Origin: Thermoplasmata archaeon
GTDB taxonomy: Archaea > Thermoplasmatota > Thermoplasmata > Methanomassiliicoccales > Methanomethylophilaceae
Direction of reading: 5' to 3'
Assembly: GCA_015063125.1 (NCBI GenBank)
Contig: SUTB01000001.1
Coordinates: 372,001 to 436,000 of the forward strand
Length of the DNA stretch: 64,000 nt
Of the stretch, positions 5,861 to 64,000 are shown piece by piece. A program made the position numbers and the translations under genes. The notes beneath the pieces are model-generated. The model had not been told where the DNA came from. It saw only the letters and a program-made list of their open reading frames with translations, and ran no database searches. Position 1 is the first letter of the stretch. Each line of letters starts with the position of its first letter.

Positions 5861-6055
5861 ATGATTGAGAATACTATCGATCACTATCCGGATGAATCTT
5901 TCAGAATGGACTGCTACGGGGAGCTTTCCGGAAAACAATACTGGGACCCGATGGCATTGGAATTACACCGTGCCTGCAGCGAGCATAGGGGGATTTCCAA
6001 AGTTGTCCTATCCGAATTGAAGGCAAAGTTCCTCGACCAACCGTTAAAAGAATGA
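5861..6055 (+). CDS. Small unknown protein
   Basis: 64 residues, MIENTIDHYPDESF start, TGA stop, 18 nt ahead of the CARF regulator at 6074 on the same strand and probably in one transcript with it. The sequence contains a predicted helix around MALELHRACSEHRGIS. No family recognised. First gene of the IS-bounded cargo block. Confidence 0.5.
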   Translation: MIENTIDHYPDESFRMDCYGELSGKQYWDPMALELHRACSEHRGISKVVLSELKAKFLDQPLKE

Positions 6056-6073
6056 AACAGAATACACGATACG

Positions 6074-6995: not shown

Positions 6996-7952
6996 TCAAT
7001 CGTATTTGGTGAATGTTTCCTTGAACTTGATGCATTCTTCTGCAAGCCATTTACATAGGCTGTCATGAGTTTCTTTGGCACGCACTGGCCTTGTATATCT
7101 GATGCGTGAGGCCTTTTTGTTCTCTAGAGGTTGCCATTCAGGATCCAGACCCAATTCGGCATTTATCTCTTCCTTGTGTTCCTCGAATTTGTAGTAGAGA
7201 TCCATATTATCGGGTATATACACCTCAACTGCCACTTCCGTTATCCTTTCTGCTCCGAAAATGAGAGGGGATACAGAGTAACCCTTAAGCCCTTTAGAGA
7301 AACCAAGAGCATAGCTGGATACGGCTGAGCGTGAGTTCGATCCAGGAAATACTTTCAGGAATTCCTTGTGTCCGGAGATGTATTTGATGAACTCATCCCA
7401 AAACTCATAACGGATGTCTGATCCCTTCCCTTTTGAAGGATCCAGAGCCTGTTTGAGAGCATTCGGCCTCTGTACTATGTTGAACCTCGGTGCTACTTGG
7501 GATTCGCCAATCCTCCACAGCTCTAGTTCCACCAAATAGAAGCTCTTCTCCGACATGTTGTTGTTCAACCATTCGACGGTAGCTGAATGTTCATCTAATG
7601 CTTTCTCGACAATCCAGATTACGCAATCAGCATCGCGGATGGCCGCATACGTCAATGCTTTACCGATGTGGTCGTGGTCGCTGTTGCCAAATTTATTCTC
7701 GATGATGACCCTTGAATTTGCGTCATCTATGAAGGTTCCAATGATATCAGCTCTGAAACGACCGGCATTTGCCTCTCTGTCATCCGGATGAATCTGAGGG
7801 ATGCCCAATGAATCGGTAAGAAAATCAAGATTGTCCTCTTCAAAAAGCCAATCTGAGAAACTTGTTTCTCCTTCCCAGTACTCTTTGATATCGTTATTGC
7901 ACCTTTCGAGTTGTCCCAGAGGTTTTCCTACGGTGGGTTTTCCATTGGCCAC
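6996..7952 (-). CDS. PD-(D/E)XK nuclease-family protein (DUF4268-like)
   Basis: 318 residues. The nuclease core is visible: AGRFRADIIGTF (catalytic D, about residue 70), then RVIIENKFGNSDHDHIGKALTYAA (E-x-K at about residues 86-88, with the diagnostic SDHDHIGK), then CVIWIVE. This matches the PD-(D/E)XK plus DUF4268 architecture common in defence islands and near restriction systems. The C-terminal half (about 165-318) is the DUF4268-like region with IRYEFWDEFIKY. Divergent from the zinc protein at 8143 and convergent with the CARF regulator. Cytoplasmic. The biological target is unknown. Confidence 0.78.
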   Translation of the reverse strand: MANGKPTVGKPLGQLERCNNDIKEYWEGETSFSDWLFEEDNLDFLTDSLGIPQIHPDDREANAGRFRADIIGTFIDDANSRVIIENKFGNSDHDHIGKALTYAAIRDADCVIWIVEKALDEHSATVEWLNNNMSEKSFYLVELELWRIGESQVAPRFNIVQRPNALKQALDPSKGKGSDIRYEFWDEFIKYISGHKEFLKVFPGSNSRSAVSSYALGFSKGLKGYSVSPLIFGAERITEVAVEVYIPDNMDLYYKFEEHKEEINAELGLDPEWQPLENKKASRIRYTRPVRAKETHDSLCKWLAEECIKFKETFTKYD

Positions 7953-14496: not shown

Positions 14497-14500
14497 CGGC

Positions 14501-16363: not shown

Positions 16364-16372
16364 GGTGATAGG

Positions 16373-18172: not shown

Positions 18173-18195
18173 GCGGAGGGCTCTGAAACCTGAAA

Positions 18196-18213
18196 GGAGG
18201 GGGAGACCCCTCC
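18196..18213 (+). promoter_or_regulatory. Hairpin containing a ribosome-binding sequence
   Basis: GGAGGGG (18196-18202), loop GAGA, CCCCTCC (18207-18213), followed by AAAGGGGG and the ATG at 18231. The GGAGG is sequestered in the stem while a second purine tract lies downstream, so the element could tune translation of the 856-aa surface protein or partially terminate transcription. Confidence 0.45.
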
Positions 18214-18230
18214 CAAAGGGGGTTCTTATC

Positions 18231-29252: not shown

Positions 29253-30155
29253 TCACGCCGCTTTGAATGCCTTCTCAGCGAAGATCCTGAAGTATTCCAA
29301 ATCGTCGTAGCTTCTGATGATGAACATGGAATCAAGAGGAGCATCGTTATGGGTATCGGGTCTGGGGACCACATTCCCGTCCCCGTACATGGAAGGTTTC
29401 CCTAAGAAGAACACATGTAACTCCGGCCCCATTTTCTTCGGATAGCAGCGGATGACCGTAGTCTTCTTCTTCCAGTATCCGACGTATTTCGAACTGGGCA
29501 TCAGCCTGATGTTAGTGGACGGCTCGATCCTTCTCACTATGTCCTCCATCGTATCTAGCCAAGAGACGATTTGATTGCTCCAATGCATCGAGGGGTAATC
29601 GACGTATTCTACCGTATCCATCGGCCTGAAAGGCTCAGATTCTTTCAAACCTTCGGGAGCCAGCAGGATATTGTTTTTCAAACAGACACCGAGTATGTCC
29701 ATCATATCGTATATACAGGGGAGCAGTACCTTGCAGCGCCTTTTCTCCGAATCGTTGGCGTTGGCTTCAGTTGTCGTTTTGGTTATGTTCCTATACCTGT
29801 CGGAATCATCGATCTGACCTTTGATGCAGTGCTCCAAATACTCAGCCATACCACCGTTGAAGGAGTTCTTTCCCGTAACCTGCAAGATGAAGCAACTATT
29901 CCACTCCACACCCTGATCCTCGTGGTCCGTGGGCCTGTTCTTTGTGCCGTTGGATGACTTGCCGACATACAGGCAATCCCTGTTCTGCCCGTCCTTTCCG
30001 GACAGGATGTAGACGAGATGTTTGTTATCGATATTGATCGAATAGCTCTTGGATTTCATCAGCCCATATGGTATTCTGTTCACTTGCAGCTCCATGAAAT
30101 CCTTCTTTACCTCTACGCAACCGTCCGAATGGTACGATACCTGGTATTCTTGCAT
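29253..30155 (-). CDS. GIY-YIG-like protein with DUF5655-like C-terminus
   Basis: 300 residues. Residues about 47-115 resemble a GIY-YIG nuclease fold: LVYILSG (the GIY strand), DCLYVGKSSNGTKNRPTDHE (the YIG strand with downstream R and H) and GGMAEYLEHCIKG (candidate catalytic E). The C-terminal 90 residues (YVGYWKKKTTVIRCYPKKMG, PELHVFFLG, FIIRSYDDLEYFRIFAEKAF) match the DUF5655 pattern found fused to nuclease-like and mobile-element proteins. Likely a DNA-processing or defence protein; catalytic competence is uncertain. Lies alone on the minus strand. Confidence 0.58.
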   Translation of the reverse strand: MQEYQVSYHSDGCVEVKKDFMELQVNRIPYGLMKSKSYSINIDNKHLVYILSGKDGQNRDCLYVGKSSNGTKNRPTDHEDQGVEWNSCFILQVTGKNSFNGGMAEYLEHCIKGQIDDSDRYRNITKTTTEANANDSEKRRCKVLLPCIYDMMDILGVCLKNNILLAPEGLKESEPFRPMDTVEYVDYPSMHWSNQIVSWLDTMEDIVRRIEPSTNIRLMPSSKYVGYWKKKTTVIRCYPKKMGPELHVFFLGKPSMYGDGNVVPRPDTHNDAPLDSMFIIRSYDDLEYFRIFAEKAFKAA

Positions 30156-31799: not shown

Positions 31800-34490
31800 T
31801 CATGGTTCACGATCATCTTCATCATCCAAACCGACTCTGACATCCCCCTGATCCTCTTCACATTGATCGATTTCTGCATCGAATAACAACAGTTGTTTTT
31901 GTAATTCTCTTTGGGATTCAAATGCATATTCTTTAGACTCAATAATTGCTTTAATCATGTTTCTTTGAACTTGTTTATCGGCCGGATATGATACTATTAA
32001 TAATTCGAAATCTTGTTCTTGCGTACGTCTGCGGTTGCTGTGTCCCGTTGTTATAGCTCTAAAAGCCCGCATATAATACCTACTACGTAACAAAATTGCA
32101 AGGAAGTCAGGATCAATTTCATCATTTGTAATTCTATATACAGGATATTCTTTAGTAACGATGGCTCCATCAAATTCTTTAGGAACCACGGCAATACAAC
32201 CTTTCCATAGGTCTATGCCGGAGTAGACAACATCTCCTTCATGAGCTACGAACCATTTAGAGGGAGAGTCTTCAAAATACATCCCTAACCATTCCGGAGG
32301 ATTATTTCCTTTTCCAGCAGCTCTTCTACGTAACGTGCCGGTTTGAGATATAGTCAGTACAGTAACTTCAACGTCTGGATTATCTTCAGGATGAATTTGC
32401 TCTAGACGTCTAGTCATCAATTCTGTAATGGGGCGAGATATCCACCCAGATCTCTGTATCTGTCTTTCTTGAAGCTTGAACAGATGGTATTTTGGATCTA
32501 AACGATGGCTTGAATGACTCGACCATATTTCTTCAATCGATAAGGATGATGTATTAGCACTAGTTGGCATAAAGTGATTTGGATCAGAAATGAAGGAACG
32601 ATAATCTCCTAAAATGGACCCGTCTTGATTTGTGGCCAGTTTGCCGTTATCTTCTCCGTTATACAGATCATTCTTTTTTGAAGGTAATCCAGTTGTTGTA
32701 TACCCTATGTTACTTGCTTCTGAGAAGAATACCCTGTATGAGTTAGAACATAGCGCCTCGTATATTGGGTCTTTGGCACCCCCAGACACACAATCCTCGT
32801 AGTCTGAATCAAATTGCTGCTTTTCGTCATTTGTAAATTTTTGGAAGAACAGGACAGAAGTTTTGTTTTGTGCACCAGATCTTCTGAAGGCGTAGTCTGG
32901 TAATGAAACGACAGCGAGAATTTTGCCATTTCTGACTAAGTATTCACGAGTAGCAGTAGCGCTATCTTTTCCCTGATTGTTCAACACACCATCAGGTAAA
33001 ACGAAACCTAGTCTTCCTCCAGGCACTAGCATATTAATGGCTTTTTCTAATATGATTATCTCAGATTCGATTTTGGTTTTACCTTTTCCCAGGACAAAAT
33101 TGTTCAGACTGTTTTTACCAAGCTGATCCTCATCACCATCTTTGATGCTATCTCCAAAAGGGGGATTTCCAACAACGACATCAAAATTGTTGGATATCTG
33201 TTGGAGTCTCGGCTTAGTGAAACTTAGTGATAAGCAGCTGCGATCTCCTTCGATATTCGTGTGACCATCATGGTGAAGAAGAAGATTGATCTTACATATT
33301 CTGGCAAGTATCTCGTGTATTTCTATACCATAGACCTTTTGGAGGGCGAAATCTGTTTTGATACGATTCAATTCTGAGCGACCGGCAAATTCTACCTCTA
33401 TATTATTCCAGACTTGTAATAAAACTTCTAGAAGAAAACCTCCACTACCACATGTTGGATCGATGACATACTCATTATGGTTGATATCAAGCATCGACAC
33501 AGTGAACCTTGCAATTGGGCGCATAGTAAAATATTGACCTAACTCACCGCGGAAAACAGATCCGAAGAATATTTCAAAGGCCATGCCAATGTTGTCTACT
33601 GTTGTATCTGTGATGGAGATGTCCTGAAGTATTCCTACTATCTCGAATATCTTATTGTCAGATATCTGAATAGTAGAATCGGGCGGAAATATAGATGAAT
33701 CGACCTTTATTGCTTGTTTAAATAGGGTATGTATACGAGTTGCAACAACGCTAGCAGGTTCTCCTGTTCCAATCTGGAATTTTCTCGGTTCACCATTGGG
33801 TGTGTTACGTTCATCCTCTACTTTAGCTAGCATCAATTTACTCCATTCATCAAAAGATTGGAGGGGATCTCTCTTTCCGCCAGCCCAGATGGTAGAGTGA
33901 GCTCTTTTGACTTTGGATTCTAAGACCTTAGTTGATACAGGCGTAATATCTGTTCCATTAGGGCCTGCAATATAGGTATATTTGGGTACATTTCCATAAT
34001 TTATTGGAACGGAATCTCTGTTTCCTTTAATATTGTCTTTGCGTTCGGTCGCAGGATAGTTCTGGATATCATATAATTTCGAGATTTTTCCATCATCATA
34101 TAATCCCAAATTCGCACGTAGTGAATTTGCATTACCAAATAGTTGTTCAATCCCTTGCAAACGTTCACTACTTGTGAGTTCTGAATGTTTATTCTCAACG
34201 ACAAGATATGGTGTTTTACATGATTCTTCGGCATAAACAACGATATCTGCAAAATCATTAGGCGTACGGCGTGGAACTTCAACCTCTGTCCTCATACGTT
34301 TTGGAGAATAGTGTTTATTCAATATCAGAAAAGCAATAGTTCTAGCCCGTACTTGTTCTTCGGGATCGGTTAATACATAAGACTTTTCTTGGTTAAGGTG
34401 GTAGGTAATCCTACCCCCTTTTATAGACACTATGCCCCTTTCAATGGCATTCTTGATCAAAGAATCTTCTAAAACCCGGTTGATGTCCAT
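31800..34490 (-). CDS. Single-chain restriction-modification-specificity enzyme (Type I/IIG-like)
   Basis: 896 residues. N-terminal HSDR_N-like nuclease domain (about 20-160: DFADIVVYAEE...PYLVVENKHSE gives the D...E-x-K site). An N6-adenine methyltransferase domain follows (about 290-600) with motif I DPTCGSGGFLLEVL (about 342) and motif IV NPPFGDS (about 440). A C-terminal HsdS-like target-recognition half begins near 680 (ISRPITELMTRRLEQIHPED, VLTISQTGTLRRR, DLWKGCIAVVPKEFDGAIVT) and ends in a helix. One polypeptide could therefore cut, methylate and recognise DNA. Markedly AT-rich against its neighbours, flanked by repeat copies, no partner genes: probably acquired by horizontal transfer. 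Confidence 0.85.
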   Translation of the reverse strand: MDINRVLEDSLIKNAIERGIVSIKGGRITYHLNQEKSYVLTDPEEQVRARTIAFLILNKHYSPKRMRTEVEVPRRTPNDFADIVVYAEESCKTPYLVVENKHSELTSSERLQGIEQLFGNANSLRANLGLYDDGKISKLYDIQNYPATERKDNIKGNRDSVPINYGNVPKYTYIAGPNGTDITPVSTKVLESKVKRAHSTIWAGGKRDPLQSFDEWSKLMLAKVEDERNTPNGEPRKFQIGTGEPASVVATRIHTLFKQAIKVDSSIFPPDSTIQISDNKIFEIVGILQDISITDTTVDNIGMAFEIFFGSVFRGELGQYFTMRPIARFTVSMLDINHNEYVIDPTCGSGGFLLEVLLQVWNNIEVEFAGRSELNRIKTDFALQKVYGIEIHEILARICKINLLLHHDGHTNIEGDRSCLSLSFTKPRLQQISNNFDVVVGNPPFGDSIKDGDEDQLGKNSLNNFVLGKGKTKIESEIIILEKAINMLVPGGRLGFVLPDGVLNNQGKDSATATREYLVRNGKILAVVSLPDYAFRRSGAQNKTSVLFFQKFTNDEKQQFDSDYEDCVSGGAKDPIYEALCSNSYRVFFSEASNIGYTTTGLPSKKNDLYNGEDNGKLATNQDGSILGDYRSFISDPNHFMPTSANTSSLSIEEIWSSHSSHRLDPKYHLFKLQERQIQRSGWISRPITELMTRRLEQIHPEDNPDVEVTVLTISQTGTLRRRAAGKGNNPPEWLGMYFEDSPSKWFVAHEGDVVYSGIDLWKGCIAVVPKEFDGAIVTKEYPVYRITNDEIDPDFLAILLRSRYYMRAFRAITTGHSNRRRTQEQDFELLIVSYPADKQVQRNMIKAIIESKEYAFESQRELQKQLLLFDAEIDQCEEDQGDVRVGLDDEDDREP

Positions 34491-41427: not shown

Positions 41428-41979
41428 ATGAACAGACGCGATACGTTGGACGCGATGAACCTGGGCATATCGGCGGCATCCCTTGGTGTCGGGATTTTGG
41501 CATTATGCCTGAACGAGAAGAAAGGTGATCAGATGGCGAACAAGATAGACAGCAGCAAGTATTCCTCGCGCAAGGATCTGAAGAAGGCCTACGCGAAGGA
41601 GATCAAGAGGACCGCCGTGTCCGAGATAGGGTACACGGGCACGGTCATCGTCCTCAACGAGAAAGGGGAACCGACGACATACGGATTGGTCCCCTTGGAG
41701 AACAGGAAGATAACAAAGGAGAGGACTCAGAAGCCCAAATCACAGGGCTCCTGGGTCGCCATGGAGATCAACTCCAGGAGCGGAGGGGACAGGCAGGCCA
41801 TTGTCTGCTCATCCAAGGAGGAGGCCAAGAGCAGAGCATTATCCATGAAGAAGGCCCATCGCAAGGGCTCCAAGCAGTCGAAGAACTGCATCCAGGGGTA
41901 CACGAGGGCGGATACCTCTAGAACGATAGATGTGGCCGACCTCTTCAACGGAGAGGGCGGCACTGTATACAGGGTGTGA
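41428..41979 (+). CDS. Basic protein with N-terminal hydrophobic helix
   Basis: 183 residues from ATG 41428. Residues 8-27 (AMNLGISAASLGVGILALCL) form one hydrophobic helix, followed by a very basic domain (SRKDLKKAYAKEIKRTAVSE, KERTQKPKSQGSWVAMEINS, MKKAHRKGSKQSKNCIQGYT). A membrane-tethered nucleic-acid-binding protein is plausible. Internal Met at 41533 is an alternative start that would drop the helix. Confidence 0.58.
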   Translation: MNRRDTLDAMNLGISAASLGVGILALCLNEKKGDQMANKIDSSKYSSRKDLKKAYAKEIKRTAVSEIGYTGTVIVLNEKGEPTTYGLVPLENRKITKERTQKPKSQGSWVAMEINSRSGGDRQAIVCSSKEEAKSRALSMKKAHRKGSKQSKNCIQGYTRADTSRTIDVADLFNGEGGTVYRV

Positions 41980-41983
41980 TGGA

Positions 41984-43252
41984 ATGAAGATATTCAGATA
42001 CATGAAGAGACCCCTGGTCTCGTCGGAGAACAGGAAAGCGGCGAATCAGGTGGCATACACAAGGAAGGGAACGGACATAGTCGAGACTCTGGGAAGCGGA
42101 ACGGCTTCGAGAAGGAAGATCCCGACCGTATGGGTCACCGCGAAGAACGGACAGAAGTGGGAGATCCCCGTGGACCCCAAGACGGGAAGGGTCCCGGACG
42201 AGTACCTCTACGCGAGATTCCTGGCAACGCATCAGGGCTCCCGCAACGGAAGGGAGAGGAACATCCTCATCGACATCGGGAAGGATGCGGATATGCTGCA
42301 TGAGATCCCTGCCGGAGGATTCACTCCCCAGCAGCTCATCGAGACCGGCTGGTGGCAGGGCGTGAACGAATCCGACATCATCGGAATAGACGACACGGGA
42401 GCGTTGGCATTCGCCAGGGAGCTGGAAGCCGCTGCTAAATCCGCTCAGGCGCAGGGAAAGAAGATGATCTTCCTCATGCCTGAGGAATCGGCCGAGAGGG
42501 CAAGGCAGATACTCTCCAAGGACTTCAACGCCTCCGAAATCAAGAAAGCCGTGAGGAACGGAGGAATCATCATCAAGGAGGGCAACCCGGGAAGGGGGGC
42601 CTCCGGATGCTACGTTTCCATGCAGGAATCCTCATCGCTGAAGACCCCTGTGATCATCCTGGGAAAGGACTGGAACGAGGAGACGCTGGTCCATGAGTTC
42701 ACGCATCACCTCAGACATGTCGATGAGACGAGGGGAGGACTCACAAGGACCCCGCTGAAGCTCAACGAGAACGGGGAGAGAATCTCATCGACCAGATACG
42801 CCCCGAAGGAGTACAACTCCGCATTGAATCTCGAGGAGGCCTCTACGGTCGCTGAATCATTGGTAAGGATACAGGCCCCGTCAGCCGGAGCCAACGGATA
42901 TTATGCCGCAACGACCGTCCACGGCGATACTCCTTACAAGAGGTATCTGCACGACAGGGACATAATGGTCCCCGGCGGTTCCCAGCCCCTCAGAGGCCAC
43001 AGAGCGGAGAGGCAGGTGGTCCAGAAGTTCGGCGAGACCTCGATCTCCCACATGGGATACTACCGTCCCGGATCCAATGCCGGAAGGTATCTGGAGGAGA
43101 GGAAGGCGAAAGGCAACCTTCCCGTGGCATCGAAGCCTTCCAAGAAGAAGAAAGCACCCGATATGACGGGTTTCGGAACCAAGGGTCCCGGGATGGTGGG
43201 TGCCGAAGCATCGAAGAGCAAGAACAGGAGGGCCACTAAAGCAAGAAGATGA
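41984..43252 (+). CDS. HExxH metalloprotease-like protein
   Basis: 422 residues. Catalytic H237-E-F-T-H241 in ETLVHEFTHHLRHVDETRGG; LNLEEASTVAESLVRIQ supplies the likely Glu ligand. The C-terminal part (LHDRDIMVPGGSQPLRGHRA) parallels LHDQQVISGSRALKGKAA of the paralogue at 40278. N-terminal 120 residues are separate (TVWVTAKNGQKWEIPVDPKT, then RNILIDIGKDADML). Ends with a basic tail. Followed by a terminator hairpin, so it is the last gene of the second operon. Confidence 0.68.
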   Translation: MKIFRYMKRPLVSSENRKAANQVAYTRKGTDIVETLGSGTASRRKIPTVWVTAKNGQKWEIPVDPKTGRVPDEYLYARFLATHQGSRNGRERNILIDIGKDADMLHEIPAGGFTPQQLIETGWWQGVNESDIIGIDDTGALAFARELEAAAKSAQAQGKKMIFLMPEESAERARQILSKDFNASEIKKAVRNGGIIIKEGNPGRGASGCYVSMQESSSLKTPVIILGKDWNEETLVHEFTHHLRHVDETRGGLTRTPLKLNENGERISSTRYAPKEYNSALNLEEASTVAESLVRIQAPSAGANGYYAATTVHGDTPYKRYLHDRDIMVPGGSQPLRGHRAERQVVQKFGETSISHMGYYRPGSNAGRYLEERKAKGNLPVASKPSKKKKAPDMTGFGTKGPGMVGAEASKSKNRRATKARR

Positions 43253-43266
43253 CCGTCCGATAAACC

Positions 43267-43291
43267 GAGGCGCTGGGCTTCCCAGCGCCTC
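43267..43291. terminator. Terminator hairpin
   Basis: 11-bp stem GAGGCGCTGGG with loop CTT and CCCAGCGCCTC, followed by CTCTTT. It ends the plus-strand operon shortly before the convergent gene at 43360. Confidence 0.75.
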
Positions 43292-43359
43292 CTCTTTCAG
43301 CTATTCGCACACATAAGGCGGTTCAATAAATTGCAAACCGATCAGTTGTCAATCAGCAC

Positions 43360-44082
43360 CTACATCATCAGATCCCCTACTTCCCTTGGGGTGCCGTAAG
43401 CAATCTGCTGGATGATGAAGAATTCGTCTACAGTCATGGGAACGACGAACTCATGTTGCAAAGGCCCTCTCCTATCGTGCTCAGGCACTTCGCATACTCC
43501 GACCTTGAACTTCACGTATCTGTCCTCTTCATCGTCTTTGCTATCCAGAGAATCTAGGAAAGCTTTTGCTATAGCCTTATCATCGCCGAATCTGTCGATC
43601 AGCCGCCCATATTCATAATCCGAAAGCTTGATCGAGAGTTCTACCCCTTCGACCTTCTTCAGCGGCACATCGGACTTCCTGAGATCCTCCAGAATGTATG
43701 TCATTTCCTTGGGGTCGTAGCAATAGGTTGCGACGATATCAGGCTGTATGTCGCATTCGTAGCGGTTGTCACCCAGATCGCGCTCGTTATGCTCCACGGG
43801 CATCATGACGGTATAGCCGCTCAGATATGCTTCCAGAGACCACAAGCCCTTAGAATCCGGGTATTCGGCTAATAACTCCTTCTCGGCCTCGAGAAATCTA
43901 TCTGTTTCCATCACACAAGGGCCCTCGCCCTCATCCCACTCGGTGCCGAACCCGAATGCGGGGTGATCGGGATCGGGTACGGGCTTCCAATCGGAGAATG
44001 TGCAGTCATCGTACCGTATGCGGTATCTGCAGCGTATCTTTCCGATCATTGATGACGAGTCCTCGAACATATCCTGGACCAC
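43360..44082 (-). CDS. Unknown protein, paralogue of the 46924 gene; TAG stop
   Basis: 240 residues. It shares with the 251-residue protein at 46924-47679 the opening CRYRIRYDDCTFSDWKPVPD (RYKVRYSDGSVSDWMLIPD), the centre YLSGYTVMMPVEHNE (YLSGYAVTMPVEYNE) and the end EFFIIQQIAYG (EFFAFQQIAYG). The stop is TAG (43360-43362); read-through adds only VLIDN before TGA, matching VGVLSQ at the same place in the paralogue. The pair brackets the reverse-transcriptase gene. No known domain recognised. Confidence 0.65.
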   Translation of the reverse strand: MVQDMFEDSSSMIGKIRCRYRIRYDDCTFSDWKPVPDPDHPAFGFGTEWDEGEGPCVMETDRFLEAEKELLAEYPDSKGLWSLEAYLSGYTVMMPVEHNERDLGDNRYECDIQPDIVATYCYDPKEMTYILEDLRKSDVPLKKVEGVELSIKLSDYEYGRLIDRFGDDKAIAKAFLDSLDSKDDEEDRYVKFKVGVCEVPEHDRRGPLQHEFVVPMTVDEFFIIQQIAYGTPREVGDLMM

Positions 44083-44177
44083 TGTTGATGAGTATTAGAA
44101 CATTTCCGAATCCCGAGCCCTATATGCATAATGGTGCACAGTGTTTGCCTTTTTTTTACGACCTGGATATATCCGCC

Positions 44178-46646
44178 ATGGAATCAAACCATAGCATAAA
44201 GGATCCTGGTCTGGAGCTACGCTGGAAGACCATCGATTGGGAAGCAGTTGAAGACCGTGTCGAGACGATGAGAAGGAACATCTCTCTGGCCACGATGGAT
44301 AGGGATTTCGAACTCGCGGAGAATCTCGTGGACAATTTCATGAGATCCGTGGATGCCCACCTGATAGCCGTCAGGTCCGTTACTTCCAAGGACGCGACTA
44401 AAGAAGTGGGGCTGGGAGAAGCCTGGGAAACGGATTCGGACAGGATGCGTGCGGTTCTCGTCCTCGATCCCGACAATTACAGATCCGACCCGGTGCAGAC
44501 GTACAAGGCCTTCGAACCCAGAACGAAGAAGGACAGGTGGTTCACCATACCCACATTCTACGACCGTGCGATGCATGAGCTGATGAACATGGCGGCCGTA
44601 TCATACATGGAACCCCTTCTGGACAAAAGGATGTTCTCCGTACGCGACGGCAGATCTGTAGCCGATGCCGTCACCGAGCTGAAGTATATCCTGACCGGAC
44701 AGGGGTCTCCGGAATGGATAGTCAAATTCGATGTCAAATCATTCTACGACACCATCTCGCACCAATGGCTGAAAGAGAACTTCCCCATATTCCCCGAGAT
44801 GGTGGCAGCTCTTCTTTCGGCGGATAAGTATCTGAAAGGGTCCGGCGAGGAGATCGAATGGACGAGCGGAATCAGTACAGGAGACAGGTTCAGCCCAGCA
44901 TTATCCAGATGGACGCTCAACGGAGTAGAGGGTCTTTTCAGGGACACGGACGATCCGATGAACGGCATCGCATTGGCCTGGGTGGACGACATAATCGTTA
45001 CGGCAAGGACAAGACGCCAGGCCGAGGATATGATGTCCAAGATGGTGGATTTCCTGGCCGAACGCGGTCTGACGCTAAACATGCAGAAGAGCATGGTCAC
45101 CAACATCCGCGAGGGAGTGGATTGGCTAGGTTTCAGCTTCAAGAAGGTCGGGGAAGGTATAGTCATCACCCCCTCGAAGGATTCTCTCCAGGACTACATC
45201 GCCGAACTGAAGGATATCATCGACAGCGCCATGTCCGTCGGGCAGATGATAAAGTCCGTGAACGACAAATACCGCGGATTCAAGTCGCAGTATCGGATCG
45301 CGGATCTCTCCGAATGCGCCAAGGATATCGACGATAAGGTATTCACGATGGCCATAAACGCGGCCCCCAGGCTAGCACACGTCACCAATGAACAGGCGCT
45401 ATCCAGATTCATCGGCAAGGACGAGAGGGGCCAGATCTTCAGGATGGATGAGAAGAGGTACATAAAGCGTGTCTCCGATATCCGCAGGGTGCCCCACGAG
45501 AGGCTGTTCCTGAACGCCATCCCGCTGGTCAATAAGCAGTACTTTACGGAAAGGAGCGAGCGCCTGAAGATCATGAAAGTGTCCACGAAATATGCTGGGA
45601 TGATGGATTCCCAGAGGGACATATGCCCATACTGCGGACTTCTGATACGCTATTTCGAGGAACGCGAGATCGTTGAGGGAGGATCGGGAAAGAGGTATGC
45701 TCACAGCTTCTGTGTCAAGGAGGAGGCAATCCTATCGATGACCCCGCCCGAAAAGGAGCCGATCCCTATCTCCGAATCGAGTACTCCGCTGCCGTCCGAA
45801 CCTGCAGAAACTCACCAGGATGCCCAGGACCAATCGGTTCTGAGCCTGGACGAATTCGTCACATCCGTATCCGAAGCCGTCAAAGATAGGAAGATTGAGG
45901 AGAAAGAGACCGAGACCAAGGCTGAACAGACCGCTAAAAAGGAATGGGGCACGGATATGGATAGTCTCCTGAATTACCTGGAGGACAAGAAGAGATACGG
46001 CCATACGTTCATTCACATATCCAAGATCCAATACCATTCTGGACGCAAACTTCCCCCGGAAGCATTCACCAACGATATCTGGTGGTACAAAGTGGGGAAG
46101 GATTCGATGAATAAGATGCTTGCCAAAGGCGGCTGGTATGTGGAACGTGTCGATACGAAGATGAATCTCGTATGGTTCGCTGTGGGGAAGATAACCTGGA
46201 AGGTATCGGAGGCGGAACAGGCATTCATCCTGAGAAGCTCCGGGCCGGATGCGGCCGTCTATTGCAGACAAAGGGATGAAAGGGTGGCGAGATCGGAGAT
46301 GCGCCCATTCACAGAATATCTCGTCAGTTGCGACATGGATCAGCTGAAACTGACGGTTGCGGATATAGAGAAGATACTCGGGTATCCTCTGCCAGCGGGA
46401 GCATCTAACGAACATTGGTGGAGGACCCGCAAGACGAACCATATCCTGACAGCGATCGAGGATGCTGACTGGACGAAAGTGGAGTACGTTCACGGCTCGC
46501 ATATAATCATAGCAAGAGTGGCCAAGATGCCTGAACCCGGTCGCGGGAACGTTGTGCTGGGCGATCTCAGGAACAAGAAGTACCTGATCGATGCCATAAA
46601 TGTAAGGTTCCCCAATCCAGATTCGGAGGATTCCCAATTCTTCTGA
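44178..46646 (+). CDS. Group II intron-type reverse transcriptase fused to two DUF7662-like domains
   Basis: 822 residues from ATG 44178; the frame is open from 43956 but earlier codons lie opposite another gene. The RT core (about 60-340) has VTSKDATKEVG, RWFTIPTFYDRAMHELMNMA, the first catalytic Asp in VKFDVKSFYDTISHQWL (about 184), ISTGDRFSPALSRW in place of QGGxxSP, WVDDIIVTAR in place of YADD (about 268) and VDWLGFSFKKV. A maturase-like thumb follows, then a degenerate HNH/zinc knuckle (CPYCG...HSFC, about 483-515), a charged linker, and two copies (about 594-669, 710-781) of a domain with LP-x-x-A/F...WW and GW/ADWTKVEYV, resembling DUF7662. No intron RNA is visible around it, so it is a free-standing RT, a type often recruited to defence. 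Domain naming of the C-terminus is from memory. Confidence 0.78.
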   Translation: MESNHSIKDPGLELRWKTIDWEAVEDRVETMRRNISLATMDRDFELAENLVDNFMRSVDAHLIAVRSVTSKDATKEVGLGEAWETDSDRMRAVLVLDPDNYRSDPVQTYKAFEPRTKKDRWFTIPTFYDRAMHELMNMAAVSYMEPLLDKRMFSVRDGRSVADAVTELKYILTGQGSPEWIVKFDVKSFYDTISHQWLKENFPIFPEMVAALLSADKYLKGSGEEIEWTSGISTGDRFSPALSRWTLNGVEGLFRDTDDPMNGIALAWVDDIIVTARTRRQAEDMMSKMVDFLAERGLTLNMQKSMVTNIREGVDWLGFSFKKVGEGIVITPSKDSLQDYIAELKDIIDSAMSVGQMIKSVNDKYRGFKSQYRIADLSECAKDIDDKVFTMAINAAPRLAHVTNEQALSRFIGKDERGQIFRMDEKRYIKRVSDIRRVPHERLFLNAIPLVNKQYFTERSERLKIMKVSTKYAGMMDSQRDICPYCGLLIRYFEEREIVEGGSGKRYAHSFCVKEEAILSMTPPEKEPIPISESSTPLPSEPAETHQDAQDQSVLSLDEFVTSVSEAVKDRKIEEKETETKAEQTAKKEWGTDMDSLLNYLEDKKRYGHTFIHISKIQYHSGRKLPPEAFTNDIWWYKVGKDSMNKMLAKGGWYVERVDTKMNLVWFAVGKITWKVSEAEQAFILRSSGPDAAVYCRQRDERVARSEMRPFTEYLVSCDMDQLKLTVADIEKILGYPLPAGASNEHWWRTRKTNHILTAIEDADWTKVEYVHGSHIIIARVAKMPEPGRGNVVLGDLRNKKYLIDAINVRFPNPDSEDSQFF

Positions 46647-46651
46647 TACAA

Positions 46652-46674
46652 TCCGTGTCTCCATGCGGGACACG
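46652..46674. terminator. Hairpin after the RT gene
   Basis: CCGTGTC, loop TCCATGCGG, GACACGG, a few nt after the RT stop. It may terminate the transcript or be part of a structured RNA linked to the RT. Confidence 0.5.
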
Positions 46675-46711
46675 GCCCTTCCTTCAAAAAGAGGCGGAAA
46701 CATCAGGCGCG

Positions 46712-46837
46712 TCAGAAGCTCATCTCGAACCTCATCTCCAGCGGCTGGCCGCAGACCATGCATCTGCTAAATGGATTGAGCTCGTCGTTCTCTGTTCCGC
46801 AGTGCCTGCAAGCGCATTACCCTTTGCCCTCCCGCAT
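46712..46837 (-). pseudogene. Zinc-ribbon microgene with nonsense codon
   Basis: 42 codons, the same length as the intact copy at 47836-47961. It reads MREGKG, TAA, then CACRHCGTENDELNPFSRCM, VCGQPLEMRFEMSF. Codon 7 is TAA where the intact copy has AAA. All four zinc-binding Cys lie after the stop. No other in-frame start is near, so this copy is most likely dead. Confidence 0.6.
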
Positions 46838-46923
46838 ATCTTCTGATCATTTGGGTTAGCGTGTAGTGTCCTAAGTACGGGCTGCAATAACAATCACGAC
46901 AATGCAACCGAATCAGCAGCGGT

Positions 46924-47679
46924 TCAATGCTTGTAAGCCTTCGGTCCACGATTCTGCTTCTGCGAAAGCACGCCAACCAATACGTCGGCCGGATCCCTGC
47001 TGGGACCGTAGGCGATCTGCTGGAAAGCGAAGAACTCGAGCAGATCCATATCCAGAACAAGGCTCTCGGCGTATTCTTCTGATAGGTTCTCGGCCTTGGT
47101 CCTGCTTACTTCATACGTGTAAGGGTCCGATTTAATGGAATCAAGAATGAGATCGAAAGCCCTGTCCCAGAAATCGCCTTCAATCTGCTCCTTGTTCATA
47201 AAATCGCGGACCTTCCGATGCTCATCGCGAGTCAGCCTCATCTCCACCGTGGCCCCCAGAACTCCGGGGTGCTTCTCGGCATCCCTTATGATACCATCCA
47301 GAATAAATGCTTCATTCTCGCGGTCGAAATGGTAGTTCATTCTCCATTCCGGGCTGAGATCGCATTGGAATACATCCTTGGAGACCATCTTTTCGTTATA
47401 TTCGACAGGCATCGTTACGGCGTATCCCGACAGATAAGAAAGCACAGAGTCGGCCTTATCATAGACTTCCGGGTATGTTTTCAACGCCAGGAGGTCTCTC
47501 TTAAATCCTTCTGTCTCCTTTATCCATGGAGGGATGTCCAAATCATCCCAATCGGGGCCCCACAGGAATGAAGGATGGCGGGGATCCGGTATGAGCATCC
47601 AATCCGAGACGGATCCGTCAGAGTATCTGACCTTGTATCTGGTACGGATGCTATCTATATCCGGATCTTTCCCTGACAT
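46924..47679 (-). CDS. Unknown protein, paralogue of the 43360 gene
   Basis: 251 residues. MSGKDPDIDSIRTRYKVRYS then SVSDWMLIPDPRHPSFLWGP, YLSGYAVTMPVEYNE, EFFAFQQIAYGPSRDPADVL. It shares these blocks with the protein at 43360-44082. Acidic, cytoplasmic by composition. It and the zinc-ribbon microgene are present as two sets around the RT gene, suggesting duplication of a small module. Confidence 0.65.
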   Translation of the reverse strand: MSGKDPDIDSIRTRYKVRYSDGSVSDWMLIPDPRHPSFLWGPDWDDLDIPPWIKETEGFKRDLLALKTYPEVYDKADSVLSYLSGYAVTMPVEYNEKMVSKDVFQCDLSPEWRMNYHFDRENEAFILDGIIRDAEKHPGVLGATVEMRLTRDEHRKVRDFMNKEQIEGDFWDRAFDLILDSIKSDPYTYEVSRTKAENLSEEYAESLVLDMDLLEFFAFQQIAYGPSRDPADVLVGVLSQKQNRGPKAYKH

Positions 47680-47835
47680 GTTATCGTTTTACAAACACAG
47701 CTGTTGCATATCAGTTTTGTCCCCCATATGCCCGCTCGCCCACAGGCATACGTTCCATAATTCTCCATGGAATGACAGCGACAACTTTTCGTACAATGCT
47801 TGGACGCTACGGCCATAAAGTGGATGTGTGCCCCC

Positions 47836-47961
47836 TCAGAAAGCCATTTCGAACCTCATCTCCAGCGGCTGTCCGCATACGATGCATCTGCTGAAAGGAT
47901 TCAGTTCGTCGTTCTCTGCGCCGCAATACTTACAAGTGCATTTTCCCATATCCTCAACCAT
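47836..47961 (-). CDS. 41-residue zinc-ribbon microprotein
   Basis: MVEDMGKCTCKYCGAENDEL then NPFSRCIVCGQPLEMRFEMA F. Cys pattern CTCKYC...CIVC is a complete one-zinc ribbon. A nonsense-bearing copy lies at 46712. It may be co-transcribed with the 251-aa gene 156 nt downstream. Function unknown; a nucleic-acid or protein adaptor is typical for such ribbons. Confidence 0.62.
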   Translation of the reverse strand: MVEDMGKCTCKYCGAENDELNPFSRCIVCGQPLEMRFEMAF

Positions 47962-48043
47962 ATCTCCCGATTATTTAGGCTGGCGTGTAGGTGTAAAGTT
48001 GACAGTTTTACTTTTGCACCCGCTCTGCTCCAGCCTATAAAAA

Positions 48044-48307
48044 TCATCGGAAATCAGCTCGCTCCATGTACTCGAGCCTGTTGTGGCATTCCTCCGGATT
48101 AGGGATGTAGAACTCTACGACGACCTTGCCCAATTCCTCTCCCGGGGTACGGTGGTAGTCCGCGTACGATTCGAACTGGATCTGCTTTAGCACCTGCTGT
48201 GTGAGACGGTCTATGATGTTCTCCCTCTCGCTTTCCAGATATCCCTCGATCCCGGAGGCGATCTGTTCCTGCAACCATTCCATGTCTTTGTGGATGACCT
48301 TTGTCAT
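48044..48307 (-). CDS. Small protein, paralogue of the 30337 gene
   Basis: 87 residues: MTKVIHKDMEWLQEQIASGI, EGYLESERENIIDRLTQQVL, then VVVEFYIPNPEECHNRLEYM. See the 84-residue relative at 30337-30591. An amphipathic helix followed by a beta-like end. Unknown function. Confidence 0.58.
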   Translation of the reverse strand: MTKVIHKDMEWLQEQIASGIEGYLESERENIIDRLTQQVLKQIQFESYADYHRTPGEELGKVVVEFYIPNPEECHNRLEYMERADFR

Positions 48308-48367
48308 GCCCCTTATCCAACGCTTTGCGGATTTAACTCTTCGCGCATTTTCTAAGATTTAGGGTTC

Positions 48368-49012
48368 TTAGGTAATCGAGAGAATGCGCTCATTTATGCA
48401 GCGATAGACCTCGGAGACACGTTTCCCCAAGGGTGTGAGCGAATACCTCTTCTCATGCCTGCCTTCAACGCTGTCGGTGATCAGAACCAGGCCCTCCTCC
48501 AACATCAGATTCAGCAGCCTCGTCACATATTCGTGGTTTCTGATATGCGTGAGAATCTCCTTCTGGACGACGTGGTCCTTGCCGTCCAGGATAAGGAATA
48601 CCGTCTCCGCGTGTTTCCGATCTATGCTCTTGCCGGACAGCTCGGAGCCGGGGGAAACGAGGAGGTCCACCATGGAGAACAGCAATGCGGCTTCCTTTCC
48701 GAGGGGAGTCAGGGAGACAAGTATGCGCTTGTGTCCGTCTCTGGAGTCGGTCATCTCGATAAGCCCGTCGTCTCTCATCGATTCCAGCCTCTTGCGGAGA
48801 GTCTGAGTGTGGTTGACGATCGGCAGGAGATCCTTCAGAATCAGCGGAGTCCCGGATTGGTTCAGAGCGAGGAGTATCCCTATTGTGTGGCCCTCGCCGA
48901 TGCTCGTGAAGAAATCCGGATCCCTCAAACTATCGGTTCTCCGAACCCTTTTGAGCGTAATAATACTAATCCGCCGGCTCACGGAAGAAGAAAGCCCGTT
49001 GATTACGGGCAT
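48368..49012 (-). CDS. Double winged-helix transcription regulator
   Basis: 214 residues. Two similar winged-helix units: HTIGILLALNQSGTPLILKD...LRKRLESMRDDGLIEMTDSR...SLTPLGKEAALLF and KHAETVFLILDGKDHVVQKE...VTRLLNLMLEEGLVLITDSV...SLTPLGKRVSEVY. The internal duplication (GLIEMTDS/GLVLITDS, LTPLGK twice) is clear. Cytoplasmic DNA-binding protein, MarR/PadR-like. It is divergent from AbrB and the integrase, so it may control the integrase operon from the shared AT-rich promoter region at 49020-49190. Confidence 0.72.
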   Translation of the reverse strand: MPVINGLSSSVSRRISIITLKRVRRTDSLRDPDFFTSIGEGHTIGILLALNQSGTPLILKDLLPIVNHTQTLRKRLESMRDDGLIEMTDSRDGHKRILVSLTPLGKEAALLFSMVDLLVSPGSELSGKSIDRKHAETVFLILDGKDHVVQKEILTHIRNHEYVTRLLNLMLEEGLVLITDSVEGRHEKRYSLTPLGKRVSEVYRCINERILSIT

Positions 49013-49142
49013 TCGACCCCGATAAAGTTGGATGTTACCACCTAATATCGTATAATTTTGTATATTTTGTATTGGAAATAGTTGCTACTTAAACCGCTAA
49101 ACACCCTTTGTAACTGGTCATAGTTACGTAAAATAACAAATT

Positions 49143-49152
49143 CTTTATATAC
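49143..49152 (+). promoter_or_regulatory. TATA box for the abrB-integrase operon
   Basis: CTTTATATAC about 45 nt before the ATG at 49197, in an AT-rich region shared with the divergent regulator gene. Confidence 0.55.
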
Positions 49153-49196
49153 TACACGATACGTTAGCAACTCTGCCCGTGGAAGAGGTAGCAACC

Positions 49197-49424
49197 ATGA
49201 AATGCATAACAAGCAGCACATATCCCGCGAAGGTCGTGAAGTCGGGAAAGGTCAAGTACGTGGCCATCCCGGCGAACGTCCTTCACAGGATGGGACTCGA
49301 GGAGGGAGACCTTCTCGACGTGACGATATCCTTCCCGAAGATGGAAGAATACGACATGGAGACCCTCAGGAGCCTGAGGGACACAGACAATACGAACAAG
49401 AGGAGCAGAAGAGAATCGGAATGA
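49197..49424 (+). CDS. AbrB/SpoVT-type DNA-binding protein
   Basis: 75 residues from ATG 49197, chosen over the in-frame GTG at 49179 because AGAGGT sits 7 nt upstream. AKVVKSGKVKYVAIPANVLH followed by RMGLEEGDLLDVTI is the swapped-hairpin AbrB fold (K-x-G-x-x-x-I-P...L-x-x-G-D). C-terminal acidic then basic tail. Small AbrB proteins act as dimeric transcription factors or antitoxins. It lies 58 nt upstream of the integrase and is likely its regulator. Confidence 0.78.
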   Translation: MKCITSSTYPAKVVKSGKVKYVAIPANVLHRMGLEEGDLLDVTISFPKMEEYDMETLRSLRDTDNTNKRSRRESE

Positions 49425-49482
49425 AATGTAACGGCCCGCCCGCGAGTGGAATCTTGAGCGGACCGACCACAGAGTAGATACT

Positions 49483-51087
49483 ATGGCAGTAGAAGTAAGG
49501 GAAAGAGTCTATTTAAACCCGAATATAAGGTCGGTAGACATCGTCGAAGAGTACGTCCTGGAGACAGGGACCTATTCTCAGACGGTAATCCAGACAGAGG
49601 ATCTGGAAGCATTTTTGGAACACCTGAGGGGCCTTAGGCTGTCCGAGAAGACGGTCAACGGCTACAGGAAGAGCGTGAACCTATGCATGTCCATGCTGAA
49701 CACGGGCATACACAATGTGAACGAGGACGAGTTCAGAGAATTGGCCGAAAGGCTTTATTCAACGAGGGAGCGCTCCTATGCGAAGAACATCATCACGAGA
49801 TTCGGCAGGTACTACAGGTTCTGCAACGGGATCGACCCGCCGGACATAGGGGACGGGAGAAGGACAATGGAATCTATAGGCTCTAAGGCCAATTCCATGT
49901 GCAACCTCCTCCCTGATAAGGTGGCCGAGTTCAGGGCATTCCTGTCGGAGGATCACACCGAGAGTACCGTCAACACGATAATCGACCACATCACCAGGTG
50001 CCTGATGATAATCTATACGGACAGAGGTTTCGTGGATATCCGGAAGATCGACGAGCAGACGATATTCGCTCTGGATAGGAAGCTGGAGGGCCTCAAATGG
50101 GATTACCGCAGGGCCATCCTCAGATCTCTGGGGGATTTCGTCTTCCATTTCACGGGGAACAATCCGTACTATCTGTTCATGGAGGATTCAGACAGGAGGA
50201 AGAAGAAAGAATGCCGTTTCGATCCTCAGGTCGACGAATATCTCGGAACGATCTGGAAGAGGAACAGGAAGAAGACCACGATCAGTTCCAAGAGGAAGAA
50301 CATCATCAGGATGGTGCGGATCATGGATGAGGTGTTCGGGGAGATCCCCTTGGAGGAAGTGAGCCCGTACCAGATCATGGACCTGAGATATCACTTCGAC
50401 GGGCTCAAGGACACAACGGTATACAAGTACGTGACCGATTTCTGCGATTTCATAGAGCACGTAACGGGTAACGACCTTCTCAGGCAATGCCAGTTCGAAT
50501 GGAACCTCGACGAGTCCGTGGAGAGGAAGTGGATATTCAGAGAGGAATGGGAGAAGCTGAAGGCCGAGGCGGATCCGATGGAACTGCTGATTCTGTTCCT
50601 CGGTGCTGGCCTGGGTCTGAGAAGGGCGGAGATAGCTGGAATACGGCTCCAGGATATCGAGGGCGACAGGCTCACGGTGTGGGGCAAAGGTGTCGGGAAA
50701 GGGAAGAAAGCGGTGTTCTCTCTGAGACCGAAGGTCAGGGAGGCTCTGGACAGATATCTGGAGATCAGGTCCAAGACTGTCTCGAGATACGGCGATTCAT
50801 CCGACGGCAGGCTGTTCATCAACGGTTCCAACTACAGGGGCAGGGCGATGACTCCCGATGCCATAGGGCAGATCGTGAGGAGGCTGGGGAAGAGGGTCGG
50901 GGTCGACCTGTCGACTCACAGTCTCCGCAGGTTCTTCTGCATGACGATGTATGACAGCAAGACGGACGAGTTCGTGATACAGAGGAAGATGCGTCACAGC
51001 AGCATCGAGATCACCCGCAACCACTACCTGTACGTGGATCCGAGGAAGATGGCTCTGGCCGACGATATGACTCAGGATGGCTTGTAA
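49483..51087 (+). CDS. Tyrosine recombinase (integrase), 534 aa
   Basis: Catalytic residues: Arg in GAGLGLRRAEIAGIRL (about 377), H-x-L-R in THSLRRFFCMTMY (about 477-480), H/R in KMRHSSIEITRNHYLYV with the nucleophilic Tyr near 515. The catalytic domain starts at about 340. The 340-residue N-terminal part is long for the family and seems to contain two core-binding modules (SEKTVNGYRKSVNLCMSMLN and SSKRKNIIRMVRIMDEVFGE). Ends with TAA. It marks the right side of the accessory region; the next gene is core. I could not find the attachment site. Confidence 0.82.
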   Translation: MAVEVRERVYLNPNIRSVDIVEEYVLETGTYSQTVIQTEDLEAFLEHLRGLRLSEKTVNGYRKSVNLCMSMLNTGIHNVNEDEFRELAERLYSTRERSYAKNIITRFGRYYRFCNGIDPPDIGDGRRTMESIGSKANSMCNLLPDKVAEFRAFLSEDHTESTVNTIIDHITRCLMIIYTDRGFVDIRKIDEQTIFALDRKLEGLKWDYRRAILRSLGDFVFHFTGNNPYYLFMEDSDRRKKKECRFDPQVDEYLGTIWKRNRKKTTISSKRKNIIRMVRIMDEVFGEIPLEEVSPYQIMDLRYHFDGLKDTTVYKYVTDFCDFIEHVTGNDLLRQCQFEWNLDESVERKWIFREEWEKLKAEADPMELLILFLGAGLGLRRAEIAGIRLQDIEGDRLTVWGKGVGKGKKAVFSLRPKVREALDRYLEIRSKTVSRYGDSSDGRLFINGSNYRGRAMTPDAIGQIVRRLGKRVGVDLSTHSLRRFFCMTMYDSKTDEFVIQRKMRHSSIEITRNHYLYVDPRKMALADDMTQDGL

Positions 51088-51246: not shown

Positions 51247-51528
51247 TCATTTCTGATCGTTGATCATTATTATATGGTAGCCGAATTCCGTCTTGACGGG
51301 TCCGACGACCTGGCCTTTCTGTCCTTCGAAGCATGCCTTCTCGAATTCGGGGACCATCTCGCCTTTGCCGAACCATCCCAGGTTGCCACCCTTGGACTTG
51401 CTGGGGCACTTGGAGAACCTCTTCGCCAGTCCCGCGAAGTCCTCGCCCTTGGAAAGGCGAATCATGATTCCTTCTGCGTCCCTGGCGTTGGATACCAGTA
51501 TGTGTGATGCATTGACTGATTTGACCAT
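51247..51528 (-). CDS. Parvulin-type peptidyl-prolyl isomerase
   Basis: 93 residues, full-length for single-domain parvulins. NASHILVS (HxxH/S strand), FAGLAKRFSKCPSKSKGGNL, GWFGKGEMVPEFEKACF and KTEFGYHIIMI are the conserved PpiC blocks. Catalyses cis-trans isomerisation of peptidyl-prolyl bonds in the cytoplasm. First core gene to the right of the integrase. Confidence 0.9.
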   Translation of the reverse strand: MVKSVNASHILVSNARDAEGIMIRLSKGEDFAGLAKRFSKCPSKSKGGNLGWFGKGEMVPEFEKACFEGQKGQVVGPVKTEFGYHIIMINDQK

Positions 51529-63347: not shown

Positions 63348-63422
63348 GGACAGGTGGCCTAGCTTGGATATGGCGGCAGCCTCCTAAGCTGCAAGCCGAG
63401 GGTTCGAATCCCTCCCTGTTCG
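63348..63422 (+). tRNA. tRNA-Arg (CCU)
   Basis: Acceptor GGACAGG pairs with CCTGTTC (one G-U), anticodon arm GCAGC-CTCCTAA-GCTGC with anticodon CCT, T arm GAGGG-TTCGAAT-CCCTC, discriminator G. CCA is not encoded (GCCT follows). The 3' half is the probable integration target of the adjacent integrase. Confidence 0.93.
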
Positions 63423-64000
63423 CCTAGTCCAGCGGATGCTCTGGACTTCCTCGGAGCATCCCTTTCATCAGACGGATTCGCGGAGCAATCCGCGGATCCG
63501 TCGCCATACCACAGGTCAAGCGCACGGGAGACCGCCTGAGAACGGCGGACCCTGGCGTAGTATGTTTCCGTGACCCTGCTTGAGGCGTGTCCGAGTAGAA
63601 CGGACACGACCTCTATCGGCAGGCCCTCGTCCAGCATCATCTGACCGTACGTAGCACGGAGAACACGGTAATCGAAGGCGAAGCCAAGATCCTCACAGAT
63701 CCGGCGCCTCCAAACACCGAAAGCGTTTATCGAGTACGGAACACCTCCGTTATCGAAGAGGTATCCGTCAGGAATGGAAGACAAATACCTTGCGATGACC
63801 GGAACGAATTCGGGACGTACAGGAACTATCCTCGAATCCGTCCAGACACCGCGCCCTTTAGGGTTACCAATTATGACCTTATGATCGTTCAGATCGAAAT
63901 CCGATACATGCATCAGGCGCATCTCGTTCGTACGCGCGCCGGTAGCAAGGGCGACAACCGACGGCATCCAATGAAGCAAGGCATCAGAGGGAACGCTCTC
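63359..64000 (-). CDS. Tyrosine recombinase, C-terminal part, overlapping tRNA-Arg
   Basis: Runs off the right edge; the first visible codons read ESVPSDALLHWMPSVVALAT. Catalytic residues: Arg in ATGARTNEMRL, the YRVLRATYGQ box (H-x-x-R with the first His replaced), LLGHASSRVTETYYARV with H, R and the Tyr nucleophile. After the catalytic domain the frame goes on through the antisense of the tRNA-Arg 3' half (GGIRTLGLQLRRLPPYPS) and stops with TAG inside the tRNA. This is the arrangement of an island integrated in a tRNA gene, which should extend right of the window. Confidence 0.85.
   Translation of the reverse strand, partial: ESVPSDALLHWMPSVVALATGARTNEMRLMHVSDFDLNDHKVIIGNPKGRGVWTDSRIVPVRPEFVPVIARYLSSIPDGYLFDNGGVPYSINAFGVWRRRICEDLGFAFDYRVLRATYGQMMLDEGLPIEVVSVLLGHASSRVTETYYARVRRSQAVSRALDLWYGDGSADCSANPSDERDAPRKSRASAGLGEQGGIRTLGLQLRRLPPYPS

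Follow-up and report, generated by a model that had tools for sequence, protein, structure and literature searches.

The fusion gene and its carrier element

Within the 64 kb stretch of DNA that was analysed (the window), one gene joins a reverse transcriptase (RT) of the group II intron type to two DUF7662-like domains (Table 1). The unusual reading frame to which the original prediction had drawn attention was confirmed as an intact gene of 822 codons, and a further in-frame ATG lies upstream of its start, at 44124. The GC content by codon position (0.52/0.39/0.68) resembles that of the intact adjoining genes. The anatomy and origin of the fusion protein are well supported; it is real, unusual and apparently undescribed, and its function we infer.

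Table 1. Positions of the fusion gene, its domains and motifs, and selected features of the carrier element (window coordinates unless another locus is given).
Feature	Position	Strand	Residues	Support or remark
RT-DUF7662-DUF7662 fusion gene	44178..46646	+	822 aa	uninterrupted ORF
RVT_N / N-terminal extension and RT0	44223..44459	+	16-94	Pfam RVT_N 2e-11; acidic, relatives strongly basic
RT finger-palm domain RVT_1	44526..45137	+	117-320	Pfam 8e-25; AF2 pLDDT mostly 75-97
Motif A, FDVKSFYD	within RVT_1	+		contains D185
Motif B, GISTGDRFSPALS	44868..44906	+	231-243	replaces GTPQGGIISPxLA
Motif C, WVDD	44979..44990	+	268-271	replaces YADD
Thumb / X (maturase-type) region	45195..45377	+	340-400	basic charge gone; modelled by AF2
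D (DNA-binding) domain	45375..45617	+	400-480	alignment; still basic
Zinc-knuckle remnant of HNH endonuclease	45624..45713	+	483-512	CPYC...HSFC
DUF7662-like domain, copy 1	45945..46190	+	590-671	hhalign P 5e-6
DUF7662-like domain, copy 2	46299..46520	+	708-781	Pfam E 1e-4 in isolated tail; hhalign P 8e-9
Tyrosine integrase of element	49483..51087	+		Phage_integrase 7e-17; PHROG integrase 1e-32
Right attachment site, 47-bp repeat	51247..51293	+		partner at genome C4:350209-350255, outside window
Type III restriction genes	L061:14545-19025			element
Second type III methylase	L062:7526-9106			element
Type I/IIG-like methylase	31800-34490			element
PDC-S11/DUF4268 candidate	6996-7952			element
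PDC-S14 candidate	29253-30155			element
CARF/HFX_2341 proteins	6074-6991			element
DdmD-like helicase	L061:8093-11812	-	1239 aa	element; PADLOC 6e-23
Copies of duplicated unit	43360-44046, 46924-47679	-		fusion gene inside second unit
Copies of duplicated unit	46712-46866, 47836-47990			fusion gene inside second unit

The fusion gene is carried by an integrated element of ~73 kb, which spans positions 1-51293 of the window and C4:350209-372000 of the genome (L061 and L062). Its relatives and gene content mark the host as an archaeon, probably one resembling Methanomassiliicoccales. In a genome of the same species (G141) the empty site was found; there the sequences up to C4:350255 and from C4:423247 are contiguous and share the 47 bp. 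All window DNA to the left of the right attachment site is element DNA. The integrase gene adjoins this site, which lies at the 3' end of a gene identified by eye as peptidyl-prolyl isomerase-like.

A tandem duplication of small genes flanks the fusion gene, which was inserted between the two copies and reads in the opposite direction. Each duplicated unit comprises a short ORF for a zinc ribbon and a protein of ~240 aa and unknown function, whose paralogs are 31% identical, and neither the pair nor the fusion RT was found in the other 101 of the 102 genomes of the family. The sole long repeat near the fusion gene (46712-46866 / 47836-47990) was considered as the template/variable pair of a diversity-generating retroelement (DGR) and rejected: its copies differ by third-position changes without adenine bias, as in a plain duplication of a gene. 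It is quite improbable that the RT serves the replication, mobility or gene diversification of the element itself. The gene does lie close to the integrase (~3 kb) and to the attachment site (5 kb), but integration is already explained by the integrase and the nearby long repeat is not a DGR pair.

Two ORFs of unknown function (L061:7017-8096 and 5931-6788) follow the DdmD-like gene; together the three may form a plasmid-defence module like DdmDE, in an archaeal version whose partner is unusual. At window positions 12865-20801 (+) several large proteins are encoded in a row; they seem to have signal peptides, include He_PIG (Ig-like) and Listeria-Bacteroides repeat domains, and are probably surface proteins carried by the element. 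At window positions 63348-63424, near-identity to the same-species genome again breaks off, precisely where a tRNA gene ends (63424), which suggests that a second integrated element begins there.

Descent from group II intron proteins and changes in the RT

Residues 13-520 constitute a CL/IIB-type group II intron RT made up of finger, palm, thumb and D parts. The NCBIfam model group_II_RT_mat matched at 9e-43 (146.7 bits, under its 300-bit equivalog cut-off), and GIIM scored 14.3 bits, under the Pfam cut-off of 23. The nearest solved protein was 6me0_C, a maturase-RT from a group IIB intron of T. elongatus (phmmer 8e-43, residues 13-490), in an alignment that extends into the CPxCG of the HNH domain; the next best solved protein gave 3e-11, and GsI-IIC 1e-7. 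In a tree of 66 RTs, the phylogeny that had been proposed as a check, the fusion protein grouped with the CL-type clade (SH-aLRT 99). Its branch measures 5.19 changes per site, ~13 times longer than the median of 0.39. The support of 99 applies to the fusion protein together with the CL rows versus distant RTs and falls to 11 for the CL rows alone; the tree is compatible with a placement either inside the CL clade or just outside it.

AlphaFold2 (AF2), given an alignment with 63 group II relatives, modelled the RT, thumb and D domain with confidence (pLDDT mostly >85 up to residue 465, dropping in some loops and after that point) and the tail with low confidence. Among the matches listed, the model scored a Z of 33 over 402 residues against 6me0_C, 27 against GsI-IIC, 25 against G2L4, 21 against DRT9 and near 17 against retrons, a ranking that is partly built in because the alignment was composed of group II proteins.

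The closest sequences, five from the same archaeal family included, belong to ordinary introns (27-32% identity). Group II RNA (D1-D4 and/or D5/6) was detected at all five of the nearest family relatives (L003-L007). Around the fusion gene, intron RNA, domains V/VI included, is absent as predicted: no intron RNA was found among RNA families at gathering level in the whole 64 kb window, nor was group II RNA at E<=10 within 41500-49500, using the same library that finds it in L003-L007.

The catalytic aspartates D185, D270 and D271, which the original prediction had described as kept, are present in the fusion protein together with K304. The motifs read GISTGDRFSP and LAWVDD, and the substitutions that had been pointed out (TGDRFSP for QGGxxSP and WVDD for YADD) are correct and fall at near-invariant positions. 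The equivalents of Q234 and A269 are Q and A in 99/99 aligned relatives, and that of Y268 is Y in 96/99; the fusion protein has T, V and W, respectively. When highly conserved positions were defined as those with an identical state in >=95% of the 99 relatives (88 positions), 52 were kept by the fusion protein (41% changed), among them D185, D191, D270, D271, K304, G231, G235 and S239. The altered positions cluster in motif B (P233S, Q234T, G236D) and motif C (R267A, Y268W, A269V); further changes are found in motif A (I186V, G188S, F190Y) and in the thumb and D domain (Y371Q, W395A, H400A). Since Q234T and Y268W would remove residues that touch the template or primer, activity may be weak or absent.

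Group II proteins grip their intron RNA with the faces of the N-terminus/fingers and of the thumb, and use the D domain to bind the DNA target. Residues 13-389 of the fusion protein have a net charge of -3.7 per 100 aa, as compared to +7.3 ± 1.6 in the 99 relatives (minimum +2.4), a deficit of 6.9 SD. The charge of the 88 N-terminal residues 13-100 is -9.1 versus +14.4 per 100 aa in the relatives, that of the thumb 0.0 versus +12.5, and that of the D domain +9.9 versus +14.2. Because the RT core is acidic, the intron-RNA-binding surface has probably been lost, and the pattern would read as RNA binding lost and DNA binding kept.

The HNH site had been called degraded, and of it the zinc CxxC and HxxC pairs persist (C483 and C486 in CPYC 483-486, H509 and C512 in HSFC 509-512), while the catalytic His/Asn segment is missing in the alignment with the relatives' consensus. 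The CPYC aligns to the CPVCG of 6me0_C, and the zinc knuckle was modelled as beta-beta-alpha.

The fusion protein shares with the mobile group IIB/CL maturase-RT of Thermosynechococcus elongatus (PDB 6me0, 8fli) the order of parts from the N-terminal extension to the D domain, as well as the first zinc half of the HNH domain. It differs in the loss of the intron RNA and nuclease site, in its acidic RNA-binding faces, in the WVDD and TGD motifs and in the tandem DUF7662 tail. Among the features of a mobile group II intron, the group II type RT domain is present; surrounding intron RNA, a GIIM/X region with a basic surface and an active HNH domain are not, the last being no absolute criterion since many relatives lack the endonuclease (En). 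On these features, the fusion protein is not a member of the mobile introns. That it acts in trans as a maturase, splicing introns elsewhere in the genome, is a far-fetched reading: the RT, thumb and D domain folds are retained, but the basic N-terminus and thumb surface are lost, the maturase residues W395 and H400 are both now Ala, and GIIM falls below the cut-off.

The DUF7662 tail and the search for a second fusion

Two DUF7662-like copies had been proposed for the C-terminal part, and profile comparison of the tail supported both. Copy 2 was matched by Pfam at 22.4 of the 26 bits of the curated DUF7662 (PF24698) cut-off; copy 1 gave no Pfam match to DUF7662 and was recognised by hhalign. 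With a profile built from eight archaeal DUF7662 domains, hhalign scores were 33.2 for copy 1 and 45.6 for copy 2, as compared to maxima of 15.5 for 60 shuffles of copy 1 and 18.2 for 169 pieces of ordinary group II proteins. Since both scores lie above these maxima, the likeness of the two copies to DUF7662 is, at the level of sequence, more than chance.

DUF7662 was found above the cut-off in 7/400 genomes of the class, in proteins of 160-390 aa where it is partnered with SHOCT, DUF6884 or a weak GIY-YIG match (E 0.028). It is fused to an HNH endonuclease on a Paraburkholderia plasmid, and occurs in viral contigs as free 80-90-aa proteins. The DUF7662 proteins examined elsewhere in archaea and bacteria were fused to nuclease-type domains or free-standing, with no RT fusion among them. 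Their conserved WW and G[WY] blocks are also seen in the two copies of the fusion protein, which differ from them in being divergent and in tandem. A by-eye likeness to a PD-(D/E)XK nuclease (FDFVS...GDAK) in the second domain of L037, L038, L040 and L041 was set aside, as Pfam names nothing there.

In the predicted model of a free-standing DUF7662 copy (pLDDT 82), one helix and one strand are followed by three helices and then two strands. Most of the top PDB matches of the model were winged-helix DNA-binding proteins (RepE, Pi, CtsR and PurR), at insignificant scores (RepE best with Z 5.5; Foldseek best E 0.3). Because of this fold trend and the nuclease partners, we take winged-helix-like DNA binding as a lead for DUF7662. 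The literature searched contained no mention of DUF7662, and this would be the first functional lead for a domain of unknown function that recurs beside nucleases.

The original prediction held that the architecture had no described precedent, and a search for the same fusion in other archaea and beyond agrees with this. With the full protein or its C-terminal part as the query, no second RT-DUF7662 fusion was found in the family (102 genomes) or order (147), in samples of the class (400 genomes) and phylum (389), or in narrow scans of viral contigs, phages, plasmids and GTDB contigs; the GTDB full-protein scan consisted of six exact peptides, so distant relatives could escape it. Among the sequences searched, the fusion is one of a kind, and with one example there is no relative for dN/dS or conserved-neighbour comparison. 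A lone plasmid match of the tail (H41), under an RND transporter, looks like chance. A 670-aa RT of the same genus (L168) was rejected as a relative of the fusion, being intron-linked, RT-dead and without the tail.

Relation to domesticated and defence RTs and possible function

Domesticated group II-like RTs have repeatedly given rise to new biology, including RNA spacer acquisition, end joining and phage defence, and the fusion protein is a further variant of them. G2L4 RTs are defined by YIDD in motif C (PMC4244168, PMC12337344); they contain an insertion of 9 aa in RT3a and lack the D and En domains, and with the I of motif C they anneal strands in preference to extending primers (PMC12337344). 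The fusion protein resembles them in its group II ancestry, the absence of an intron, its fast evolution and a bulky aliphatic side chain in motif C, and by analogy it likely shares their working principle on DNA ends. None of the features that define G2L4 (YIDD, the 9-aa RT3a insertion before motif B, the absence of D and En) was found in it; it has WVDD, an RT3a insertion of 2 residues, a D domain and the added DUF7662 pair.

G2L3/UG10 RTs carry V in motif C, as YVDD (PMC4244168), and are intron-free and maturase-type, with UG10 linked to a primase domain (PMC4244168; PMC8934634). The fusion protein is likewise intron-free and maturase-type with V in motif C, but has W in place of Y. The PADLOC model UG10_large gave 33 bits, far below the group II models, and the defining features of UG10 were not seen; the best UG model in PADLOC gave 63 bits. 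For the DRTs that have NCBIfam models, no cut-off was reached (Drt3a 41.5/200, Drt2 24.8/390, Drt4 12.8/450), and the best DRT model matched at 1e-10. Judged by these comparisons, the fusion protein lies outside G2L4, UG10 and the tested DRTs; no known defence-RT model claims it, and the expectation that it would not fall into a known defence clade has held.

We tentatively favour, at somewhat less than an even chance, a domesticated, intron-free group II-like RT that was re-targeted to DNA and serves defence or the repair of DNA. What the sequence shows is descent from a mobile intron protein of the CL/IIB type, with loss of the intron RNA, of the basic RNA-binding surface of the fingers and thumb, and of the HNH nuclease; the polymerase aspartates and the basic D domain were retained. 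In the nuclease's place it gained the tandem DUF7662 pair. Enzymatic activity, DNA binding by this pair and the biological role are inferred: the two modules are probably winged-helix-like DNA binders, which together with the D domain would hold the enzyme on double-stranded, broken or foreign DNA. The altered active site, with V for A in motif C and T for the invariant Q in motif B, would then extend DNA 3' ends. The V, together with the missing Gln of motif B and Tyr of motif C, would alter contacts with the template and primer, and synthesis would be short, annealing-dependent or poorly templated, like end joining by G2L4 RT or the non-genomic DNA made by defence RTs. As the gene is carried on an integrative element with many defence genes, selection would most likely favour it for defending or repairing the element and its host; this context is common to every gene of the element.

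The interpretation offered in the original prediction is partly supported: it stands as regards a free-standing, group II-derived RT with no second example. The antiviral role that it proposed is a possibility suggested by the defence-rich mobile element and by analogy. The kept D domain and the DUF7662 modules would be explained no less well by DNA-end processing of the G2L4 kind. If the favoured reading is true, the fusion protein would be an archaeal case of a single polypeptide that has traded its RNA partner and nuclease for a tail that binds DNA, and the motif C change (A to V/I) would hit the same residue that in G2L4 shifts the balance away from primer extension and towards strand annealing. 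A wider proposal, which we consider rather doubtful, is that of an archaeal class of DNA-guided RTs in which a DUF7662 tail replaces the intron RNA and endonuclease for finding DNA, with a role in end repair or antiviral synthesis and spread by integrative defence elements.

It is unlikely that the protein is a DRT-like antiviral RT that makes cDNA on phage infection, perhaps with an unrecognised ncRNA, and whose DUF7662 pair senses or delivers the cDNA. Like the DRT, UG and Abi RTs, it was recruited to a defence-rich mobile setting, as the element holds type III and type I/IIG restriction genes, a DdmD-like gene, PDC-S11, PDC-S14 and CARF proteins, and PADLOC RT models match its RT domain. 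It differs from them in that no DRT or UG model threshold is reached and no known effector domain or ncRNA was found. There is also no effector gene in an operon with it, the neighbours being on the other strand, and the flanks showed no structured RNA above shuffles (z between -0.15 and 1.69). A retron msr-msd RNA beside the gene was sought by Rfam match and as an unusually stable flank and was found by neither, many retron RNAs being absent from Rfam.

A decaying group II intron protein, with its intron lost, its ORF drifting and an accidental fusion, is improbable. The 41% of highly conserved positions that changed would be in keeping with decay, as would RT-dead or truncated group II proteins at two loci of the same genus (L168 and L171). 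On the other hand, the 822 codons are without a stop and have a codon-position GC like that of intact genes, the charge shift is directional and region-specific with the D domain spared, and two domains were gained, unlike decay. The L168 protein keeps 60/86 conserved positions yet has lost a catalytic Asp, whereas the fusion protein keeps 52/88 yet has all catalytic residues. Chance retention of the three Asp at ~60% conservation would be about 0.2, so this is a supporting point rather than proof.

At L171:1151-2086 (genome G180), a free-standing, truncated and dead group II-type RT of 311 aa with an intact start was observed, and no intron RNA was detected at this locus. At L168:753-2765 (genome G429), the intron-linked group II ORF of 670 aa contains no stops, has lost the motif A Asp and reads YADM in motif C; D5/6 RNA lies just downstream, and the protein is a candidate RT-dead maturase.
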